From Bdellovibrionales bacterium Ga0074139 (GTDB lineage Bacteria > Bdellovibrionota > Bdellovibrionia > Bdellovibrionales > Bdellovibrionaceae): a stretch of 64,000 bases of DNA. The notes beneath the pieces are model-generated. The model was not told the origin of the DNA, ran no database searches, and saw only the letters and a program-made list of their open reading frames with translations. The position numbers and the translations under genes are program-made. The first letter of the stretch is position 1, and every line of letters starts with the position of its first letter. Location of the stretch: positions 124,001 to 188,000 of the forward strand of contig LNEB01000012.1 of the NCBI GenBank assembly GCA_001464795.1, read 5' to 3'. Positions 2,551 through 58,600 of this stretch are shown one piece after another.

Positions 2551-2940
2551 ATGATTATAAATCTATTCTTAAGTTTACTATTTTCAGTTCACGCAGGCCA
2601 AACCCATGACTTAGCAGGAATTTGGACTTCATCTGAGCCCAAAATAGAACTGCAATTGAAGGGTCAGGATTTGCAAATCATCCAGTGCTCAGAAAGTAAT
2701 CAAACTGGCTGCTTTCATTTCCAGTACAAAATCATCAACGAGCAGATTTTTTTAAACTCTCGCAAAGTGGGAGACCTATTCCCCTTTCATCTTTTGATTT
2801 ATGACTCTAATACCCAAATGACCGAGATGCATAAAATAAAACTGATCAACCAAAATCAAGTTGAGTACACCTATTCCTACACAAATATGGACGGTGCTGC
2901 TTTATTTCTAAAATCAGAATTAAAGAAAAGTACGAATTAA
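2551..2940 (+). CDS. small secreted protein of unknown function
   Basis: 129 codons starting MIINLFLSLLFSVHAG, a short but clean Sec signal peptide with likely cleavage after VHA. The mature part has two Cys (in IIQCSESNQTGCF) that could form a disulfide. Predicted beta-rich stretches (GIWTSSEPKIELQLKG, KIINEQIFLNSRKVG) suggest a small lipocalin-like or META-like beta fold. I do not recognise the family. It converges on the next gene with a 4-bp overlap at the stop codons and diverges from the YkgJ-like gene by 84 bp. Confidence 0.55.
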   Translation: MIINLFLSLLFSVHAGQTHDLAGIWTSSEPKIELQLKGQDLQIIQCSESNQTGCFHFQYKIINEQIFLNSRKVGDLFPFHLLIYDSNTQMTEMHKIKLINQNQVEYTYSYTNMDGAALFLKSELKKSTN

Positions 2941-4319
2941 AGCGACTGAGTGGCCTTCCAACTTAAGCCACGAAGAGCTTCGCACGTCTGCTGCGGATTT
3001 AGCCGTAGGGCCTTTCGCAAAGGACTTGCAGGAGCTTCAAATTGAATAAGCTGTTGGGGATCAATACCTGACCTTTGATAGCCGGCCACCACATCTGTGC
3101 TCCATTGGGCGATTGGTAGGCCTCGCGATTCAAACAAAAATCGTTGTAGTAAATTCACTTGGCTTCCACGAAGTTCATTATCAAGAGCATACTTTCGTAA
3201 AAGGGGTGATCTAAGCCCAAGTAAGTTTTTTGGCAGAATCTGTAATTTAGGATCTAGAAAACCTTTACGAAATTCAAAACTCACTTTTTCATTTTGTGAA
3301 AATTGAATCTGCTGTAAAATTTCAGCTTTTCTGCTGTTAAAAGCTTTGAGGGCCACCAAATCCATTTCATTTGTATGATTTAATTTTTGAATGGGACCAA
3401 AAATATTTGTTAAATGATTCATTGAACTTAATCGTCTTGGATGAATCCACTGTGAACAGTTCTTAACAGCATTTGATAACTGGCAATCCAAATCTTTAAG
3501 CATTGAAGGACAAAAGCTGGCTGCAAAAATGGCATATTTAAATTGGTTGTAATCCTTTGACTTCACAATATCAGATGATGTTTTGATAACATTAAGTCTT
3601 TGAATCGCCTGATCAAAAACATTTAAAAATCCAGCCTCGGGAACTTTTTGAGACAAGCATTGAAACCTAGGATTTTCATTTAAAGCCTTTAAACTTTCTG
3701 TTTGTAATCGCTGTATGTAACTATCAAATTCAGGCAAAGTAGGATGCTTTTCAAGTTGCGGTAAAAATCGAAGACCTTGAACGAAGCGAGGCCAAACAAA
3801 TGGACCATCAAAGATCAGATGCGGGCCCGTGGAATTGAGGGGACTTCGGGATTCATGACAAGCCATACATAAGGGTGGATTGGCAGGCCCCATACGGGCA
3901 GAGCCAGAGCTAAAATCAATATCAAAAAATTGGCTTTTGCCTGTATTTCTATCCACTAAAACAAGCTCTACGGATTTTGTTTGTCTGAGTGATGAGTGCC
4001 CCCCATTGATGGAAAAAAAAGCACTGGGAAGCTGAATCTTTCCACCAGGTAAGGATTGAAGATTGGTCATAATTACTCGAGGACTTTGCGGAATGGAATC
4101 CTGACCAGCGAAACTTGAATGAGCCACTATATAATGATTTTGAAAAACAGATGGCAGACAGCAGGCAAATTCATCAATGGAAATTTGAGAGTTGGCCACC
4201 TGTTGTATATATTGACGAATTCCCTGCTCGTTTAATTGAGCTATACCAAGTGCAGGAATTCTACACTTGGCAAAAAGCTGAAGACTGAAAAATAGAAAAA
4301 GTAAAACTTTAAAAAGCAT
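2937..4319 (-). CDS. secreted single-CXXCH protein of unknown family
   Basis: 460 aa with signal peptide MLFKVLLFLFFSLQLFA. The central block reads PANPPLCMACHESRSPLN, one c-type heme site. The flanks resemble the protein at 50612-52072: both have a YIV/YVIM block, an SPRVIM/NPRIIM block and then xxANPPxCxxCH. They are therefore paralogues of an uncharacterised periplasmic family. Only one heme site is seen here; the second, C-terminal site of the paralogue is absent. Its ATG follows directly after the TAA of the upstream diheme gene (TAAATG), so the two are probably translated together. A role in periplasmic electron transfer is inference. Confidence 0.7.
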   Translation of the reverse strand: MLFKVLLFLFFSLQLFAKCRIPALGIAQLNEQGIRQYIQQVANSQISIDEFACCLPSVFQNHYIVAHSSFAGQDSIPQSPRVIMTNLQSLPGGKIQLPSAFFSINGGHSSLRQTKSVELVLVDRNTGKSQFFDIDFSSGSARMGPANPPLCMACHESRSPLNSTGPHLIFDGPFVWPRFVQGLRFLPQLEKHPTLPEFDSYIQRLQTESLKALNENPRFQCLSQKVPEAGFLNVFDQAIQRLNVIKTSSDIVKSKDYNQFKYAIFAASFCPSMLKDLDCQLSNAVKNCSQWIHPRRLSSMNHLTNIFGPIQKLNHTNEMDLVALKAFNSRKAEILQQIQFSQNEKVSFEFRKGFLDPKLQILPKNLLGLRSPLLRKYALDNELRGSQVNLLQRFLFESRGLPIAQWSTDVVAGYQRSGIDPQQLIQFEAPASPLRKALRLNPQQTCEALRGLSWKATQSL

Positions 4320-5123
4320 TTATTTGAGTTGGGAATTCCAGCTGACCCTTTGAACATTCGAGGCCACCTGATTGTGGCACTGCATGCAAGTTTGGCTTAG
4401 GTTTCTAGCTTTTTCAAAAGCCAGTGGATTTTTTTGCGCTGCTAACTGCATCACTTCTTTTGTGTCCATTTCAGCTTTCACACGGTTGGCATCCCCCATG
4501 TGATCAAATTTTTTGGCCCCAAGATCGTTCAGTAATCTTAAGATTTCCCTGGCATTGGTCATCAAAACTTTGTAATTCTCAATTTTTGCAATGGAAGCGG
4601 TCACAATGTGATTATAATTGGCGGCGATGGCATTCATTGTTTTACAAAGATAGGGATTTTTACCAACGGAATTGCATTCCAAAGTGATCCGTCCCCAGCC
4701 ATTCCCAAACAATTGATTCCAATTCATTTGTCCTTGCGGATGGCTTGAAGAATGACAACTTGTGCACGTTTGACTGATTCGATTTGCGGTCACAAACATT
4801 TCAGGATTGGACTGCAAACTTTCTTGCTCTAATTGAAGTGACAACTGATTGAGCCTAAAAAAAGATTCCTTATGGGTGGCTACACTTTGTGGAATAATTG
4901 GCGCCAGCATTCTTGTTGTTTGATTAATACTTTCAGCCATTCCACTTAAATATTTTGGATCCAGTCGCATCAACACCGACTGAGATTCAATGGCATTGAT
5001 GGAAGTTCCTAGGTGCTTCATTTTTTGACAGAATTCAAGATGTGGAGTGCTTGCTGTACAAACACGCACCGCTTGCGCTTGAAAAGTTAAAAATAACAAA
5101 ACTAAACATAATTTTATTTTCAT
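4320..5123 (-). CDS. secreted protein with two CXXCH heme motifs
   Basis: 267 aa with signal peptide MKIKLCLVLLFLTFQAQA. Two heme-attachment sites are visible, CTSCHSS near the middle and CMQCHNQ close to the C-terminus. The surrounding sequence is mainly helical (long Leu/Gln/Met-rich stretches), as in cytochrome c-prime or diheme helical-bundle cytochromes. It is the first gene of a two-gene unit with the 2937-4319 gene, with no spacer between them. The ribosome site is AAGGGGA, about 6 nt before the ATG. Exact cytochrome class is not certain; periplasmic redox carrier is the likely role. Confidence 0.7.
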   Translation of the reverse strand: MKIKLCLVLLFLTFQAQAVRVCTASTPHLEFCQKMKHLGTSINAIESQSVLMRLDPKYLSGMAESINQTTRMLAPIIPQSVATHKESFFRLNQLSLQLEQESLQSNPEMFVTANRISQTCTSCHSSSHPQGQMNWNQLFGNGWGRITLECNSVGKNPYLCKTMNAIAANYNHIVTASIAKIENYKVLMTNAREILRLLNDLGAKKFDHMGDANRVKAEMDTKEVMQLAAQKNPLAFEKARNLSQTCMQCHNQVASNVQRVSWNSQLK

Positions 5124-5269
5124 AAAAATCCCCTTGGCAAAAATATGTATTTCAAGAATCTTTTGATTCCAATAAAATAATTTATTTTCATTTAATCAGC
5201 GAATCATTTGAGGCAAAATGTCTCGAATTAAAGTTTACTCAACAATGAACTATCTTAAATTGTTGTCCT

Positions 5270-45869: not shown

Positions 45870-46033
45870 TGAAGATCTCCATCAAAAGGAATTTTAGATT
45901 CAAAATCAATTTGTTGATCAGTTTTAACAAAACACTGAATATAAACATGAACCAGAAAAACACTTAAAAATAATAGAAGTCCTAAACTTGTCATATTCAC
46001 ATCACTAAAAAATGCGAGACCTACGGATTTCAT
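45866..46033 (-). CDS. ccoQ: cbb3 oxidase small subunit CcoQ
   Basis: 55 codons: MKSVGLAFFSDVNMTSLGLL, then one TM helix (LLFLSVFLVHVYIQCF) and a polar tail ending DGDLQ. The start has a very strong AAGGAGGT and overlaps the ccoNO stop as ATGA; its own stop overlaps ccoP the same way. Length, TM position and place between ccoO and ccoP identify it, since the sequence of CcoQ is poorly conserved. Confidence 0.82.
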   Translation of the reverse strand: MKSVGLAFFSDVNMTSLGLLLFLSVFLVHVYIQCFVKTDQQIDFESKIPFDGDLQ

Positions 46034-48168
46034 TTTGTGACCTCCTTTTTTTTCATTTGTCCAAGAGCCTGAAGATAAGCAATCACAGCGACAATTTCTT
46101 TTCGCTCGAGTCCTGCAGGGCCACCCTGACTTACAAGATTATCAGCAATTTTTTTTGCTTCTTTTTCAGCATTGATATCAGCATTTGCAATTTCATCTTC
46201 TGTGTAAGGCACACCTAAATTTTTCATAACTGAAAGTTTTTTTCTTAAAATTAAAAAATCAATGTTCTTTGAGGCCATCCAGGAATATTTAGGCATAATG
46301 GATCCTGGTGATGTGGATCTGGGATCCATCATGTGTTGAAAATGCCAAAGATCAGGATATTTTTTTCCGACCCTGGCTAAATCGGGACCTGTTCTTTTTG
46401 ATCCCCATTGAAAGGGTCGATCATACATGGTTTCTTCCAATGTTGATGGTGGGCCATACCTTAGAACTTCACTGGCCAGGGGTCTTATCTGCTGAGAATG
46501 ACAAACATAACAACCTTCTTTGACATAAATATCTCGTCCTGCTTGTTCTAAAGCCGAGTAAGTTCTGATTTTTGTATCTTCAGGTAAATATTTATGAATG
46601 CTTAAAGTGGGATAAATTTCAATCACACTTCCTACTAAGATCGCAAGCAATGTCAGAACACTAAAGACCGTGACCATACCCTCTAATTTTCGGTGGCCTT
46701 TATCATGAGTTTCTTGATCTAAATTAATTCTGGGAACTTGGACAGATTCTTCTGGTTGATCCTTCGGTGCCGACTGGATTGTTTTATAAATATTATAAAG
46801 CATCATCACGAAGCCGATAATAAATAAAGTTCCACCTAAAGCTCGTCCCCAATAAAGCGGCAGTATTCGAATAACTGTTTCAATAAAGTCAGGATAAGTC
46901 AGTCTTCCATCAGGATTAATGGATTTCCACATTAAGCCTTGGGTAATTCCTGCCACAACTAAAGACACATAATAAAATAAAACTCCAAGTAAAGCGGTCC
47001 AGAAATGGATATCCATGAGTTTGACGCTGTAAATTTTTGTTTTCCATAATAATGGAACTGCATAGTAAATCATCGCAAAAGTTAGAAGCCCATTCCATCC
47101 TAATGCTCCACTATGGACATGGCCAATAATCCAATCCGTGTAATGACCTAAGGCGGAAACAGCTTTGATGGATAGCAGAGGTCCTTCAAAAGTGGCCATT
47201 CCATAAAAAGTAACAGCTGCTACCAAAAATTTAATAATGGGATCTGTTCTTAATAAATGCCAAGCTCCTTTAAGCGTTAACAATCCATTGATCATACCAC
47301 CCCAACTAGGAGCCCATAACATAAGACTAAAAACCACTCCTAATGTCTGCGCCCATTCAGGAAGTGAGGTGTACAAAAGATGATGGGGTCCCGCCCAAAT
47401 GTAAATGAAAACCAATGCCCAAAAATGAATGATGGAAAGACGGTAAGAATAAATGGGACGATTGGCAGCCTTGGGAAGATAATAATACATCAAACCTAAA
47501 AACGGTGTTGTTAAGAAAAAAGCCACAGCATTATGTCCGTACCACCACTGAACAAGAGCATCTTGAACACCTGCATAAATGGGATAACTTTGTAAAAAAC
47601 TAACAGGATATTCTAAACTGTTGATGATGTGCAATACGGCCACTGTGATGATGGTGGCAATGTAGAACCAGATCGCCACATAAATATGCCTTTCACGTCT
47701 TCTAGCCAAAGTCATAAAAAAGTTAACGGCAAAAATCACCCAAATAAAAGTAATGGCAATATCAAGGGGCCATTCAAGCTCTGCGTATTCTTTGGATTGA
47801 CTGTAGCCCAAAGGCAAAGTGATGGCGGCAGCCAAAATTATCAGTTGCCATCCCCAAAAATGAATCTGGCTTAAGGCATCTGAAAACAATCTTGTTTTCA
47901 GCAGTCTTTGTGTCGAGTGATAAATTCCAGCAAAGATAGCATTACCAGCAAAAGCAAAAATAGCCGCATTCGTATGCAGAGGCCTTATTCGACCAAATGT
48001 GAGCCAGGGAAGTTCCATATTGAGTGGCCAGTAAACCAATTGTAAAGCAGCTAATAAGCCCACTAAAAATGCCACTGCACCAAAAAATAAAGTCGCTAAT
48101 ATAAATTGTTTGACGACGTAATCATTATAAACAACTTTATCCCAATGTTTTAAACCACTTGTGTTCAT
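46030..48168 (-). CDS. ccoNO: fused CcoN-CcoO subunit of cbb3 cytochrome oxidase
   Basis: 712 aa from ATG 48168 (AGAGGA upstream; the earlier in-frame start at 48207 lacks it). The first about 480 residues are CcoN: 12 TM helices, heme/copper His in FGRIRPLHTNAAIFAF, WWYGHNAVAFFLT, IWAGPHHLLYTSLPEW and GHVHSGALGWNG. A linker (QSAPKDQPEESVQVPR) leads to CcoO: TM anchor, heme CYVCHSQQIRP, RTGPDLARVG and ligand Met in GSIMPKYSW. This is the terminal oxidase for low oxygen. Known as a fusion in some lineages. Confidence 0.95.
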   Translation of the reverse strand: MNTSGLKHWDKVVYNDYVVKQFILATLFFGAVAFLVGLLAALQLVYWPLNMELPWLTFGRIRPLHTNAAIFAFAGNAIFAGIYHSTQRLLKTRLFSDALSQIHFWGWQLIILAAAITLPLGYSQSKEYAELEWPLDIAITFIWVIFAVNFFMTLARRRERHIYVAIWFYIATIITVAVLHIINSLEYPVSFLQSYPIYAGVQDALVQWWYGHNAVAFFLTTPFLGLMYYYLPKAANRPIYSYRLSIIHFWALVFIYIWAGPHHLLYTSLPEWAQTLGVVFSLMLWAPSWGGMINGLLTLKGAWHLLRTDPIIKFLVAAVTFYGMATFEGPLLSIKAVSALGHYTDWIIGHVHSGALGWNGLLTFAMIYYAVPLLWKTKIYSVKLMDIHFWTALLGVLFYYVSLVVAGITQGLMWKSINPDGRLTYPDFIETVIRILPLYWGRALGGTLFIIGFVMMLYNIYKTIQSAPKDQPEESVQVPRINLDQETHDKGHRKLEGMVTVFSVLTLLAILVGSVIEIYPTLSIHKYLPEDTKIRTYSALEQAGRDIYVKEGCYVCHSQQIRPLASEVLRYGPPSTLEETMYDRPFQWGSKRTGPDLARVGKKYPDLWHFQHMMDPRSTSPGSIMPKYSWMASKNIDFLILRKKLSVMKNLGVPYTEDEIANADINAEKEAKKIADNLVSQGGPAGLERKEIVAVIAYLQALGQMKKKEVTK

Positions 48169-48319
48169 TCTCGTCCTCTTGTTGATTATCAAATAATATT
48201 CTGGCACCTGGTGTGATCACGTCTATGTACTGGCCGGATTTCACTGACCAAATAAAACCCACTAAAAACCCAAGACCTAGTAGTAAGCTCATAATAACCA
48301 TCATAATAATAATACTCAT
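48137..48319 (-). CDS. ccoS: cbb3 oxidase maturation protein CcoS
   Basis: 60 aa from ATG 48319: one TM helix (SIIIMMVIMSLLLGLGFLVGFIW) and the CcoS tail with SGQYIDVITPGARILFD. Its ATG overlaps the ccoI stop (ATGA) and its end overlaps the start of ccoNO by 32 bp. Needed for inserting copper and heme into CcoN. Confidence 0.9.
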   Translation of the reverse strand: MSIIIMMVIMSLLLGLGFLVGFIWSVKSGQYIDVITPGARILFDNQQEDENEHKWFKTLG

Positions 48320-50611: not shown

Positions 50612-52072
50612 ATGAACGTGAGTATGTCTTACCAAATACTCACTTATTGGCTTATACTTCTTCTGTTGGTGCAATCTACGGCACTGGCCAGGTATTCTAA
50701 CAGTCCCCACGACCTGGGCTTTTACTCAGGCTCCTCTTACTCATCCGTGGATCTTGACTGGGGCTATGATCTTACAGACCTCAAAAACAGTCTGAAAAGT
50801 GCATCTCAAAATGAAACAATTAACTCTGTTGAAGATTTGCTACCCGTCTTACCTCAACAACTCAGGGCCAATTACGTTATTATGTATCAAAGTCGAAGTC
50901 TGCAACAAGCTTCAGATGAAAACCCAAGAATTATTATGTTCACTCCACGGGCTGATTTCATTTTAACATTTAACGGTCATCGTTCACAAAGGGGCTTTGA
51001 TAAACTCGAGCTTATTAACTTTGATTACAAAACAAATAACTTTAACTTTCATGAAATTAGTTTTGATAAAACTCAAGGCTATCAAATTTCTGCTGCCAAT
51101 CCACCAGCTTGTTTAAAATGTCATCAATCACCAAGTCGTACCAATATAAATCCAAGACCCAATTGGGAACCCTACAGCACTTGGCCCGGAGCTATTGGCA
51201 GCCTTGATGGCAACTTTGCAAAAGATAAGAATGAAGAAATTATTTTAAATAATTTTATTAATAATAAATCTTCGCACCCTCGGTACAAGCATCTTCTGGA
51301 TCCTGAAATTAGTAGTTACTCGATCAGAACACCCGGTGATTTAACAAACTTTTTATCTGAATTAAACGCTAAGCGTGTGGTAACTGAAATAAAACAGCTT
51401 CCCATTTACAACGATATTAAAGAAACTTTTTTATCTAGTATAAAGTGTGGAAATTTAAATGTCTCGGATTCAGCTTTTAAATGGTTAGAAAAAAATAAAA
51501 AATTTACAGAGATCCTTGGAGACTTAGAGAGCGATAGCCCCATTTCTCAATTGATTCATTTAACCTTCGAACCCTTTGACATAGACACCACCGATTGGTC
51601 TATGGATTTCAAAACCCGTGGTCGATTGGCCTTTAGAGAACGCTTTGGATCTCCTAGTCAAACATCCAATCATTTCTTAAGAGCGATTAATGAATTTATT
51701 CCTGAACATATCAATTTCAGCTGCAGTCAGTTAGGCTCTTTTTCTGCAGCTAAAATGGATCGACTGATCAGCCAGTATCAACTAAAGAAATCAAATGAAA
51801 TTGAAATCACTGAATCTGTTCGCTTAAAAAAAATGTTAACGAATTGCATGAGCTGTCATGATGGAAGCAATGGTGACCCCATTATTTCCTTTGATAGACC
51901 TAATTTATTAAAAAATGAACTCCATAGGCCTGGTTTCGAGAATGGAACTTTACTGCAAGAAATAAAATATCGACTGGGTGACATGGCTCCCTTTCATAAG
52001 GCTATGCCTGCCAATCAAGTTTTAAAAAAAGAGGACACAGATCTCATATTAAGATACTTCGAAAATCTATAA
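50612..52072 (+). CDS. secreted protein with two CXXCH motifs, paralogue of 2937-4319
   Basis: 486 aa; two start choices (50612, 50624), the second giving MSYQILTYWLILLLLVQSTALA as a clean signal. The central block ISAANPPACLKCHQSPSRTN parallels PANPPLCMACHES of the paralogue. A second heme site CMSCHDGSNGD lies near the C-terminus. The flank before it is rich in aromatic beta-strands. Divergent from the cco operon and preceded by shared palindromes, which hints at a respiratory link (inference). No described family recognised. Confidence 0.72.
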   Translation: MNVSMSYQILTYWLILLLLVQSTALARYSNSPHDLGFYSGSSYSSVDLDWGYDLTDLKNSLKSASQNETINSVEDLLPVLPQQLRANYVIMYQSRSLQQASDENPRIIMFTPRADFILTFNGHRSQRGFDKLELINFDYKTNNFNFHEISFDKTQGYQISAANPPACLKCHQSPSRTNINPRPNWEPYSTWPGAIGSLDGNFAKDKNEEIILNNFINNKSSHPRYKHLLDPEISSYSIRTPGDLTNFLSELNAKRVVTEIKQLPIYNDIKETFLSSIKCGNLNVSDSAFKWLEKNKKFTEILGDLESDSPISQLIHLTFEPFDIDTTDWSMDFKTRGRLAFRERFGSPSQTSNHFLRAINEFIPEHINFSCSQLGSFSAAKMDRLISQYQLKKSNEIEITESVRLKKMLTNCMSCHDGSNGDPIISFDRPNLLKNELHRPGFENGTLLQEIKYRLGDMAPFHKAMPANQVLKKEDTDLILRYFENL

Positions 52073-52182: not shown

Positions 52183-52743
52183 ATGTTAAAACTCATCACA
52201 GCCCTAGCATTTTCAACAACACTTTTCGCAACTTCAGCTTTTGCTCAGAAGGCAGCTGTTAAAAATAACAGCATCACTCAGGAAGAGGTCCTGGCAGCTC
52301 AGCAGGCCTGGGGAAAAGCCTTGGTTCAAATCAGTCAAGATTTTGAAAAAGGAGGAATTGCAAAAGCCACAGAAACTGCAAAATCTGTTTTAGATGCAGC
52401 CTACGGTTACGACGATGGACCAGTCTTGTTTAAACCAACATTAACGTCTGGTGCACAGACTTTTAGAACAACCTACGAAGGTGCATTGGCTTACTTCGTT
52501 GGAAACAATTCCAAATTTCCTCAAGACTCTGGCTTTGCCCTTAAAGGCTGGCGCAAAACAGAAATCAAAAATTCAGCTTTGTATCTTAATGGAGACCTTG
52601 CTATCTCTATGGGTAATGTCATGATCACAAATAAGGATGGTCAAGTTACAACAGTTGATAAAACTTGGGGCTATAAAAAAGATACAGACGGAAAAATCAA
52701 AATTGTTCTTCACCACTCATCCCTTCCCTACTCTGCAAAATAA
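52183..52743 (+). CDS. secreted NTF2/SnoaL-like protein
   Basis: 186 aa with signal MLKLITALAFSTTLFATSAFA and strong AAAAGGAG upstream. The fold blocks QQAWGKALVQISQDFEKGG, YGYDDGPVLFKPTL, QTFRTTYEGALAYFVG and KIVLHHSSLPY are typical of a periplasmic NTF2-like family often mislabelled phosphoribosyl-AMP cyclohydrolase; that reaction has no support here. Function unknown. Ends with a strong terminator. Confidence 0.78.
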   Translation: MLKLITALAFSTTLFATSAFAQKAAVKNNSITQEEVLAAQQAWGKALVQISQDFEKGGIAKATETAKSVLDAAYGYDDGPVLFKPTLTSGAQTFRTTYEGALAYFVGNNSKFPQDSGFALKGWRKTEIKNSALYLNGDLAISMGNVMITNKDGQVTTVDKTWGYKKDTDGKIKIVLHHSSLPYSAK

Positions 52744-55142: not shown

Positions 55143-56585
55143 TTATAACTCGATCGGTGTTCCGTTATAGACGTCGATTCCGAAAGAATTGATATTTAAC
55201 CCAGCAAGCCTAGCCACAGACACCCAAAGATCTGCTACGTGATGGCGACTAACTGGACCACCATAATTAATCCCACTCTCGACGCGAGTTCCGTCTGGGG
55301 CCCTTGAGCCCCAAAAATAGCCTTGGCGATTGCGAGGTTCAAAAGTAGGCACGTTGACCCATCTTCCACGGCGAGTCCTGCTTCCACCACCAATAATTGT
55401 GTGCACGATGTTTCCACGGTCATGGCGACCGTTTCCAACCTCACCGGTTAGTACAATAAGCGTATTATCAATTAAAGGGCGACCGTCCACATCGTTAATA
55501 GCTGTTAATGTATTCACAAGTCCCACAATTTTACCTGCGTACCAACGGACCCATCCTTCATAGGCGGCGCGCGATGTGGGCTCAGGTAAGTAGCCAGGTA
55601 GTTTATCGTAATGGGCAATTTCGTGGTGAAAGTTATTGCCAAAAATATTTCCATTGCGATTCATGTTTGTCACGGGGTCAAACCAAGGCCACGTTTCTAA
55701 ATGATTTCCTAAACCTAAAACAGCCACCCGGTGGGTGTCCAAAGTGAAAGCGATGCGAATCATTTCTAAATATTGATCCATTTGATCATTATAACTCAAA
55801 GTCATGCCTGGCAAATTTGGCAGTTGAATATTTCCAGTGGCAGTGCCTGTGGCATTGATTCTATTTCCCAAAGCATTTAACGAAGCTAAGTAGGATTCCA
55901 TTTTAGCTCGCTCTTGGCCCGACAATCTGGCAAGCAATCGATTCGTATCACGACCTAACATCGATAGCAGAGCATTATTACGACTCAATAAAGTGGGATC
56001 TGTTTGATTTTGCTGCCGTAGAGGATCGATCACTTCTAGGTAAGCTTCACGCGCATTAGTAAAAAATGGCAAACTTCTAAGGCTACTATCAAAACTAAGC
56101 GGGTGATAGGCCGCTCCAAAAGACTGGTATCCATGACTGAGTCTTAAAACATTTTTGTTATGATGATTGGCAATCATCCAATCCAGTGAAGGTGAAGTGG
56201 GATTAGGAAATGGCCCCCCAAGGGCTGGATTAGTAGGAGCTTCGTAACGTACACTACTAGTTAATATATCCGAGTAAGATACGTCATGGGCATTACCCCA
56301 AAATCCAGTTCGCAATCCATCAATAAACTGACATTGATTTTTAATAGCATCAAAAGCACTGAATGGATTAGGTGAAACAAAGTTGGTTGTTGAACCTGTG
56401 AACCTGGCAACATCTCGGTCCGAACCCCAACCGTGCTGTAAAGCTACAAACAAAACTCTTAACGGGGCTGTTGTTGTTTGCCCCATGGCGACAGAAGAGC
56501 GTAAAAAAGGCAAAGCCACGCCAGCCGCAAGTCCCAGCTGTTTGATAAAGTCTCTTCGACTTAGATTCGGATTAATTTTTGCCAT
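55143..56585 (-). CDS. DUF1552 secreted protein with Tat signal
   Basis: 480 aa starting MAKINPNLSRRDFIKQLGLA, a twin-arginine signal with SRRDFIK. DUF1552 blocks follow: ALQHGWGSDRDV, the HHEIAHYDK motif, LTGEVGNGRHDRGN, and HHVADLWVSVARLAGL near the end. The family is related to the DUF1501/sulfatase-like alkaline-phosphatase superfamily, but its role is unknown. It follows the DUF1592 gene by 23 bp, as in planctomycetes and myxobacteria, so the two probably act together. Export in folded form suggests a bound cofactor. Confidence 0.88.
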   Translation of the reverse strand: MAKINPNLSRRDFIKQLGLAAGVALPFLRSSVAMGQTTTAPLRVLFVALQHGWGSDRDVARFTGSTTNFVSPNPFSAFDAIKNQCQFIDGLRTGFWGNAHDVSYSDILTSSVRYEAPTNPALGGPFPNPTSPSLDWMIANHHNKNVLRLSHGYQSFGAAYHPLSFDSSLRSLPFFTNAREAYLEVIDPLRQQNQTDPTLLSRNNALLSMLGRDTNRLLARLSGQERAKMESYLASLNALGNRINATGTATGNIQLPNLPGMTLSYNDQMDQYLEMIRIAFTLDTHRVAVLGLGNHLETWPWFDPVTNMNRNGNIFGNNFHHEIAHYDKLPGYLPEPTSRAAYEGWVRWYAGKIVGLVNTLTAINDVDGRPLIDNTLIVLTGEVGNGRHDRGNIVHTIIGGGSRTRRGRWVNVPTFEPRNRQGYFWGSRAPDGTRVESGINYGGPVSRHHVADLWVSVARLAGLNINSFGIDVYNGTPIEL

Positions 56586-56608: not shown

Positions 56609-58600
56609 TTACTGATTTGCAGGCCGACGCATAATAAAACTTCGTAATTCCACTAAACTTTGTACAAATGAAGCCGTATTGTCTGGTTTTTGCGATAGAC
56701 CCACTTCAAAGTTTCTTAGCTCACACTGACCATTTGTTGTTTCTGGGGACTGCCCAGAGGCATATTTGAAATACTTTTTTGTCATACAACTTCTAAAATT
56801 TGAAGATTGTGCAATGGCCTGCAAATAGGTCACGCTGTTAGTAAAAACTAAAGGCTGATCCGTTGCACCCGTTAAAGTTCCAGATGCATCAATGGCTACA
56901 TTTTGTTTTTCTGTGGTTCTAAATAATCCGATGGCATCAAAGTTTTCAAAACCAAATCCAGCAGGGTCAATTTTGCTATGACAACCCACGCAGGACATTT
57001 GTCCACTATGACTAATGCGTAATAGTTCACGGGTACTCGTTATAGCAGGGTTCACAGTGGCAGGTACTTCAACAGAACCCGTATTATCTGGTGGAGCTCC
57101 CAAGTGGTTGCATAGCAATTGTTCCAGCGCAAACACACCGCGCTTAACAATTCCCGAACCTAACTCTCCTGACATAGTCGTTAAAAAAGCAGGATGAGAT
57201 AGCATTCCATAGCGCTGATTGGGATTCATATTTTGCAAAGTCATGTTGGTGCCAAAATTATTAGGACTTAAATTAAAAAACCGGGCCGATTGGCTGTTCA
57301 CATGAAAACTTTGAGTTATAAAGGGCGACAATAGAGAAGCATTGGGAGTGGCAAATAAACCATCTAAAGTATTAGTGGCACTTGTCAATAACGCCTGTCT
57401 ATCAGCGGTTGTTAAATTAAAAGAAGAATCCTTAAAAACAGTTCGGACACTTTCTAATTTTAAAAGATCCACAATAAAATTGGTCATTTTTCTTTGAAAC
57501 CGAGAGTCTTGTACCATTCTATCCACTTGTGCTCGAAGCACAGTGGGATTTTGTAGCTGGTTATTCGCAGCTAAATCCAGAAGTACATTATCTGGTGGCC
57601 CGTCCCAAACTGTGAATGAAAGCAAAGATGCAATTTCATAATGAGTTAAATTAAAAGTTGCTAAATTTCCGATGGGAACAGCACCAATTTCCGTGCGGAA
57701 CATATGATTAGGCGACATGATCAAACTTGTTAGTATATGATCAACCACCTGCGCCCGAGTTCCACCACTGGCAGTGATCGAAGGTTGACCCGATAAAATG
57801 TCTGTCACCTCTGTTGTTGTTAAAGGTCTTCGCCAAAGTCTAAGACCAAAATCCTGTGCCAAAGTTTGGTAGCAAGCATTACTAGCAGATGAGACACAAT
57901 TTCTGACATTCGCATTTTGATTTAAAATGGCAGTCGTTAGTAATTTTGTAGAAGTGTAAAGGGCTTGAATATTCACTTCATTAATTCTTAAAATATCTGG
58001 GTCATTGGCTAAACCAATTTGTGGATTGGCATCACCGAAAACAGGAAAAGAACTCTCTGGAAAAATAGAACCAAAAACACTGGTGATTGAATTTCTAAAT
58101 TGGATTTGCGTTAAGCGCTTAATTTGTGGTGCCAGCAATTGAGTCTCTGAATTACAAGCCATCACCTGAGTGGGGATGTTAGCCACCCAATCAGCCAAAG
58201 CTGCGTACTCACTGGGCTGCAGTGGTCCTGATGGTGGCATATTCTGAGCCCCATCTTTAACTGGATAATTGTGCAATCTATAAATAAGTTTTGATGTGGC
58301 AATAACTCCGGCATTGATCAGACCTGCACCAATATATTCAGTCTCGGTGTTGAAATTCAGATTGACCGCTCCCGATTGGCCGGTGTGGCAACTGTTACAG
58401 CGATTGGCAAGAACAGCTTTGGCTGCACTAAAACGCGTATTATCAGTTACAACTGGAGTCGTCCCCGCTACCTCGCTTAAGGAGGCCAGATCTAAAGTCG
58501 TATCATCAACTTTGAAGCCACCAGGACTGCAGTTCTGAAATGTGAAGAGAGTCACAAAACCAAGCGATAATATAAGTAATGAGCGAAAATTAAACCCCAT
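56609..58600 (-). CDS. DUF1592/DUF1588/DUF1585 cytochrome-like lipoprotein
   Basis: 663 aa; signal ends SLGFVTLFTFQNCSPGG (Cys24). A PSD1-type heme domain with CNSCHTGQSG lies at about 70; DUF1587/1595-like stretches (RLTQIQFRNSITSVFG, LRLWRRPLTTTEV), the DUF1592 core, DUF1588 with CVGCHSKIDPAGFGFENFD, and a C-terminal DUF1585 (FRSCMTKKYFKYASG) follow. Full-length member of the family that is truncated at the left edge of the window. Paired with DUF1552. GGGGA precedes the ATG, and the start can be closed in a hairpin. Confidence 0.9.
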   Translation of the reverse strand: MGFNFRSLLILSLGFVTLFTFQNCSPGGFKVDDTTLDLASLSEVAGTTPVVTDNTRFSAAKAVLANRCNSCHTGQSGAVNLNFNTETEYIGAGLINAGVIATSKLIYRLHNYPVKDGAQNMPPSGPLQPSEYAALADWVANIPTQVMACNSETQLLAPQIKRLTQIQFRNSITSVFGSIFPESSFPVFGDANPQIGLANDPDILRINEVNIQALYTSTKLLTTAILNQNANVRNCVSSASNACYQTLAQDFGLRLWRRPLTTTEVTDILSGQPSITASGGTRAQVVDHILTSLIMSPNHMFRTEIGAVPIGNLATFNLTHYEIASLLSFTVWDGPPDNVLLDLAANNQLQNPTVLRAQVDRMVQDSRFQRKMTNFIVDLLKLESVRTVFKDSSFNLTTADRQALLTSATNTLDGLFATPNASLLSPFITQSFHVNSQSARFFNLSPNNFGTNMTLQNMNPNQRYGMLSHPAFLTTMSGELGSGIVKRGVFALEQLLCNHLGAPPDNTGSVEVPATVNPAITSTRELLRISHSGQMSCVGCHSKIDPAGFGFENFDAIGLFRTTEKQNVAIDASGTLTGATDQPLVFTNSVTYLQAIAQSSNFRSCMTKKYFKYASGQSPETTNGQCELRNFEVGLSQKPDNTASFVQSLVELRSFIMRRPANQ

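Follow-up and report, generated by a model that had tools for sequence, protein, structure and literature searches.

What are the haem proteins P0001 and P0003, both encoded in the window (by which we mean the whole 64,000-nucleotide stretch that was analysed), and what might they be doing? The initial annotation saw in them a protein family that it could not name, perhaps a "new class of periplasmic heme enzyme or electron shuttle", and this is still the natural reading, except that the shuttle half now looks the less likely, because the N-terminal haem has no conserved sixth ligand. What can be said plainly is that P0001 and P0003 belong to a large, real family that is nameless in Pfam and NCBIfam. 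As to function, the best-supported mechanism, which we put forward tentatively on the strength of the sequences, is that the N-terminal haem would be reactive or ligand-binding and would be served by a separate electron-transfer haem.

P0001 consists of a hydrophobic N-terminus, an N-terminal haem domain and a helical region, without a C-terminal cytochrome. Its length and that of P0002, the dihaem open reading frame (ORF) upstream, their coordinates and their CXXCH counts (one and two, respectively) are all as first annotated. The pair had also been described as fused at TAAATG; the junction is there, TAA then ATG, and since the stop codon of P0002 touches the start codon of P0001, these are separate, abutting genes and there is no gene fusion. 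A search for an FNR-like pattern (TTGATNNNNATCAA, one mismatch allowed) found a site at 5163-5176, upstream of P0002, and this says little because the window holds 18 such matches against 6.9 expected, a count that none of 100 shuffles reached.

Table 1. Positions of the genes, motifs and conserved codons discussed in the text (window coordinates unless a locus is named).
Feature	Position	Strand	Basis or remark
P0001, 460-aa monohaem family member	2937..4319	-	ORF and family profile
CXXCH of P0001 (CMACH, residues 151-155)	3855..3869	-	kept in 65/65 aligned members
Glu118 codon of P0001	3966..3968	-	Glu in 65/65; position computed from residue number
Pro80 (65/65) and Arg81 (64/65) codons of P0001	4077..4082	-	family alignment
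P0002, 267-aa dihaem protein, directly upstream of P0001	4320..5123	-	ORF, two CXXCH
P0002 first CXXCH (CTSCH, from residue 120)	4752..4766	-	sequence
P0002 second CXXCH (CMQCH, from residue 246)	4374..4388	-	sequence
P0003, 486-aa dihaem member, same family as P0001	50612..52072	+	BLASTP and profile
P0003 N-terminal haem domain CXXCH (CLKCH, from residue 167)	51110..51124	+	sequence
P0003 C-terminal class I-like cytochrome c CXXCH (CMSCH, from residue 412)	51845..51859	+	Met-Pro 53 residues on
Ankyrin members, N-terminal repeat region of about 300 residues	L068:550-2715, L077:5083-7212, L084:5116-7209		

A haem protein family nameless in Pfam and NCBIfam

The paralogue with one extra haem site that the annotation had proposed is indeed a relative: P0003 has two CXXCH motifs to the one of P0001, their N-terminal domains are homologous (27% identity over 139 aa, 53.9 bits, E 5e-12, in a single BLASTP comparison), and the blocks said to be shared were found as SPRVIM/NPRIIM and ANPPLCMACH/ANPPACLKCH. 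These are the only two copies in this genome, both with P0001 as query and with the N-domain profile, and they are distant paralogues, P0001 grouping with L081 and L003 in the domain tree and P0003 falling in a separate dihaem group.

That the family could not be named has also stood up, since searches of Pfam, NCBIfam, PHROG and the PDB yielded no known family with a defined function for the haem domain. For P0001 there was no match in Pfam or NCBIfam at E<=1, in PHROG at E<=0.01 or among PDB sequences at E<=10. The C-terminal domain of P0003 was matched weakly by Cytochrome_CBB3/Cytochrom_C, at 22.2 and 20.6 bits, both under cut-off (27 bits for the first). The same two models match 28 and 25 of the 65 aligned members, again weakly, and the remaining matches in the Pfam and NCBIfam scans are sporadic and weak too (best E 0.0024), most of them to models that themselves bear CXXCH. 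Neither P0001 nor P0003 is matched at E<=1 by the CCP/MauG model PF03150, nor is any of the 65 members at E<=0.05; the Tll0287-like PF11845 scored 14.7 bits in P0003 against a cut-off of 24.1 and reached three of the 65 (best E 0.0077). Run against the PDB, the N-terminal domain profile turned up no relative (best E 0.78); the C-terminal region of the dihaem members, by the same kind of search, matches cytochrome c6 structures (3dr0, E 8.7e-6). The open-access literature that we searched held no paper on the P0001/P0003 family.

How widespread is it? At E<=1e-3 the N-domain profile (A2, built from 14 N-terminal domains) found the family in 120 of the 368 phylum genomes and in 78 of the 234 of good quality, and a single genome may have as many as six copies; 84 distinct family ORFs were collected. 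The family is missing from both congeners searched (one is only 67% complete), and the distribution is therefore patchy. No relative was found on plasmids or viral contigs, and an insensitive short-peptide-pattern scan of 84,980 genomes returned eight relatives, all titled Bdellovibrionales, Bdellovibrionia, Bdellovibrionaceae, Bacteriovoracaceae or Bacteriovoracia. Of the 84 ORFs, 83 entered the domain alignment and tree, the upstream ORF of the tandem at L137 being excluded. In this tree P0001, L081 and L003, all monohaem, form a clade (SH-aLRT 99), P0001 being 34% identical to L081 over 462 residues, and the mono- or dihaem trait requires 13 changes, only two of which are forced by well-supported branches. 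The alignment on which most of what follows depends (A4) has 65 rows including P0001 and P0003, after 12 ORFs outside 340-640 aa had been excluded and a further seven, long-branched or near-duplicate, removed by hand; a second one (A5) has 40 rows, one of which (L006) is monohaem.

Some members have unusual architectures. In three of them, L068, L077 and L084, ankyrin repeats precede the haem domain (Ank_2, E 1.1e-21, 1.1e-19 and 2e-12), and at L137:4600-10310 two tandem dihaem ORFs of about 901 and 864 aa are both matched by the family profile. A 679-aa dihaem protein encoded directly after the L003 gene (L101:10560-12596) was considered as a relative of P0002 and ruled out, as it belongs, remotely, to the family of P0001 and P0003 (E 2.7e-7), which suggests, from sequence, that the superfamily extends beyond what the A2 profile picks up.

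Conserved residues and the predicted fold

Judged by their N-termini, the members would be secreted or extracytoplasmic, a strongly hydrophobic N-terminal stretch being present in 58 of 65, whereas among the other ORFs of at least 300 aa it is present in 197 of 412. The genome has a c-type cytochrome assembly gene (PF01578, 98.2 bits), and haem is probably bound covalently at CXXCH in the family. Six residues are invariant in the 65 rows of A4, namely Pro80, Glu118, Cys151, Cys154, His155 and Trp176 (P0001 numbering), and Arg81 is kept in 64. Cys270 (57 of 64) and Cys446 (52 of 53) are also well conserved, and a disulphide between them probably clamps the helical domain of P0001.

CXXCH aside, none of the His, Met, Lys and Tyr columns in these rows is conserved enough to provide a shared distal (sixth) haem ligand. 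The best candidates are Tyr219 (56 of 64), Tyr173 (53 of 65) and His216 (32 of 64), and at these positions P0001 itself has Phe, Pro and Asn, respectively. Cytochrome P460 has a lysine cross-linked to its haem; counted in the loose alignment of our family by itself, the only Lys column at least 40% conserved is residue 261, which lies after CXXCH, with none before it. It is for want of a conserved distal ligand column that we think the distal site may be open, an argument weakened by the looseness of A4 (mean column identity 14%), since different members could use different ligands. In the dihaem rows the C-terminal domain resembles class I cytochrome c (Cytochrome_CBB3/Cytochrom_C, c6-like), with CXXCH and then, in 36 of 36, a Met-Pro 35-62 residues past the last CXXCH; P0001 differs in having no such domain, and the N-terminal domain of the family is of another kind altogether.

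AlphaFold2 gave models of fair confidence for both proteins (pLDDT 86.6 and pTM 0.76 for P0003; 83.8 and 0.83 for P0001), and in both, five or six strands lead to a short helix with CXXCH and then to a mostly helical part. Foldseek against the PDB returned nothing at E<=0.001 for either full-length model. In structural re-alignment with VIA the best Z was 4.4 for P0001 and 2.4 for P0003, values below 5 lying in the range that the tool describes as common. For P0001 an unrelated p32 entry ranks first (p32 proteins at Z 4.4 and 4.3), and four of the first nine rows are P460/c'-beta entries, 2je2 at Z 4.2 (117 residues aligned, rmsd 4.8), 6hiu at 3.7, 7ead at 3.4 and 7s5o at 3.3; no P460 entry is among the VIA rows of the P0003 model. 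A review (PMC11928373) describes the P460/c'-beta fold as a five-stranded antiparallel sheet.

Should the family then be placed with P460? The likeness is that of a single c-haem site at a CXXCH after a beta-sheet domain, with a similar number of predicted strands and a proposed open site, and the differences are a conserved RPNW..Y..W block, a helical domain of 200-300 residues and, in many members, an added cytochrome c domain. PF16694, the P460/c'-beta model, matches neither P0001 nor P0003 at E<=1 and nothing in the genome at E<=1e-3, and it gave three weak matches among the 65 members (best E 0.0058). When 83 family domains were compared with 25 P460 domains in hhalign, the score of 25.3 fell inside a null of 200 column shuffles with CXXCH kept (median 26.0, best 38.6), and with CXXCH masked it was 11.3, where the shuffles averaged 12.6 and 64 of 100 scored equal or higher. 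The invariant Glu did align, in our reading, with the position at which P460 has its distal carboxylate when the motif was left unmasked, a coincidence that we do not use as evidence because the masked test was null. The resemblance is thus null in sequence and, going by the predicted models, weak in structure; despite the structural hint we do not place the family under P460, since the sequence profiles are no closer than shuffles.

Gene neighbourhoods and candidate partners

P0002 consists of two halves that resemble each other and that both have a CXXCH near the end; His84 in one and His208 in the other are invariant across P0002 and six relatives, and one His per half might fit an electron carrier with two axial ligands. 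With cytochrome c'/c-556 (Cytochrom_C_2, PF01322) it shares a CXXCH that ends each half, and it departs from them in being tandem, with two haem sites and an invariant His per half. PF01322 itself matches P0002 at E 0.14, and one of the six relatives scanned (L117) scores above cut-off (27.8 against 26.5). P0002-like genes occur in six of 140 genomes of the order, this one included, and in the five others none adjoins a family member, these genomes being absent from the 120 that have the family. The annotation's description of a family paired with a dihaem cytochrome is accordingly true of this genome and peculiar to it.

P0003 lies near the genes for CcoG, CcoP, a fused CcoN-CcoO and a heavy-metal P-type ATPase, and is transcribed away from them. 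A place beside the cbb3 oxidase operon had been noted, correctly for this genome; as a conserved trait it was not borne out by a survey of neighbours, in which neither cbb3 genes nor P0002-like genes were shared between loci. Among 366 ORFs within three genes of members no cluster occurs in more than four loci; the idea of a conserved partner or operon was therefore dropped, and no conserved neighbour points to a substrate. CXXCH is found in five of 129 immediate neighbours as compared with 12 of 546 more distant ORFs of the same loci, and of these five one or more would seem to be the second half of a family gene that has been split. Across the phylum, ccoN (called at E<=1e-30) is present in 83 of the 120 family genomes and in 137 of the 248 without the family, a weak association (p 0.0125, kinship uncorrected), and CCP/MauG shows no co-occurrence (67 of 120 against 123 of 248, p 0.27).

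Several other genes around P0003 deserve a mention in their own right. The CcoN-CcoO fusion is a 725-aa protein (46030-48207, minus strand; NF011053, 1161 bits), and such fusions look common in the phylum, where most of the ccoN open frames listed are about 700-780 aa. Just downstream of P0003, a 186-aa protein (52183-52743, plus strand) matches the metal-independent carbonic anhydrase model NF047901 (E 4.7e-74, 248 bits, under the cut-off of 350). Further along, a 663-aa protein with CNSCH and CVGCH (56609-58600, minus strand) adjoins a 480-aa protein with a twin-arginine-like start (55143-56585, minus strand); neither has an NCBIfam match at E<=1e-5, and the two may resemble Planctomycete-type PSCyt/DUF1552 gene pairs.

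What the N-terminal haem may do

In the mechanism that we favour, His155 would be the proximal ligand of the core haem and the open distal side would bind or convert a small molecule, peroxide or a nitrogen oxide being our likeliest guesses, with Glu118 and Arg81 as candidate pocket residues. In dihaem members the electrons would come from the C-terminal, Met-ligated class I-like cytochrome c; P0001, having no cytochrome c domain of its own, could plausibly draw them from P0002, a path that we offer as a guess because the pair is specific to this genome and may be accidental. The CcpA/MauG dihaem peroxidases of the periplasm combine one reactive and one electron-transfer haem. Dihaem family members would share this idea, and they differ from those enzymes in the beta strands of the N-terminal domain as well as in the PF03150 result. 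By analogy, the ankyrin fusions mildly favour a reaction with peroxide, periplasmic ankyrin proteins of other bacteria being reported to promote haem catalases (PMC10294975). TfcP of Myxococcus xanthus is likewise an unusual secreted cytochrome of a predatory bacterium, and is described as set apart by having just one cytochrome c domain and a gene that lies with those for PilY1 and minor pilins (PMC8833165).

It might instead be that every haem is six-coordinate, with distal ligands that vary between members, and that these proteins are shuttles, carrying electrons from one periplasmic partner to another (the cbb3 oxidase or P0002, for instance). The CXXCH sites, the class I-like domain of the dihaem members and the position of P0003 near cbb3 genes and of P0001 next to a dihaem cytochrome gene all suit such a role, which we nonetheless find somewhat unlikely, given that no distal ligand is conserved, that 37 of the 120 family genomes have no ccoN at E<=1e-30, that the cbb3 neighbourhood is not repeated elsewhere and that a protein of 400-550 aa, conserved helical domain included, is bigger than one would expect of a shuttle. 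A gas binder that is no enzyme, with a cytochrome c'-beta-like sheet and a five-coordinate haem that takes up NO (or CO) for buffering or sensing, is unlikely too: the P460/c'-beta rows found with the P0001 model and the five or six strands ahead of the CXXCH helix argue for it, and the common range of those Z scores, the p32 entry ranked above them, the lack of P460 rows for P0003, the shuffle-level profile scores with and without the motif and the sparse PF16694 matches argue against it. Standalone genes with unconserved neighbours, divergent paralogues, up to six in a genome, and the ankyrin fusions could also point to a haem-based sensor or regulator that passes a redox or gas signal through its helical or ankyrin parts. 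This we regard as very unlikely, since neither the scan of ten long members nor that of the 65 aligned ones showed a kinase, a cyclase or any other signalling domain, and the extra cytochrome c domain of the dihaem forms indicates electron transfer.

Taken further, a reactive N-terminal haem with a separate electron supply could make this an open-site c-haem enzyme superfamily, seen so far only in Bdellovibrio's phylum, with a fold outside the PDB or very remotely akin to P460, a modular electron-transfer domain (C-terminal in dihaem members, P0002 in this genome) and, in some members, periplasmic ankyrin repeats as a docking part, a picture that as a whole we consider doubtful. The haem domain is covered by no family model, though in this phylum, rich in predators, roughly one searched genome in three has such a gene, and often several. 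If these proteins are enzymes, their haem scaffold would be new and so, possibly, would their reaction in the periplasm, and if they bind gas, they would be a new route of NO handling; the conserved residues make their function directly testable.
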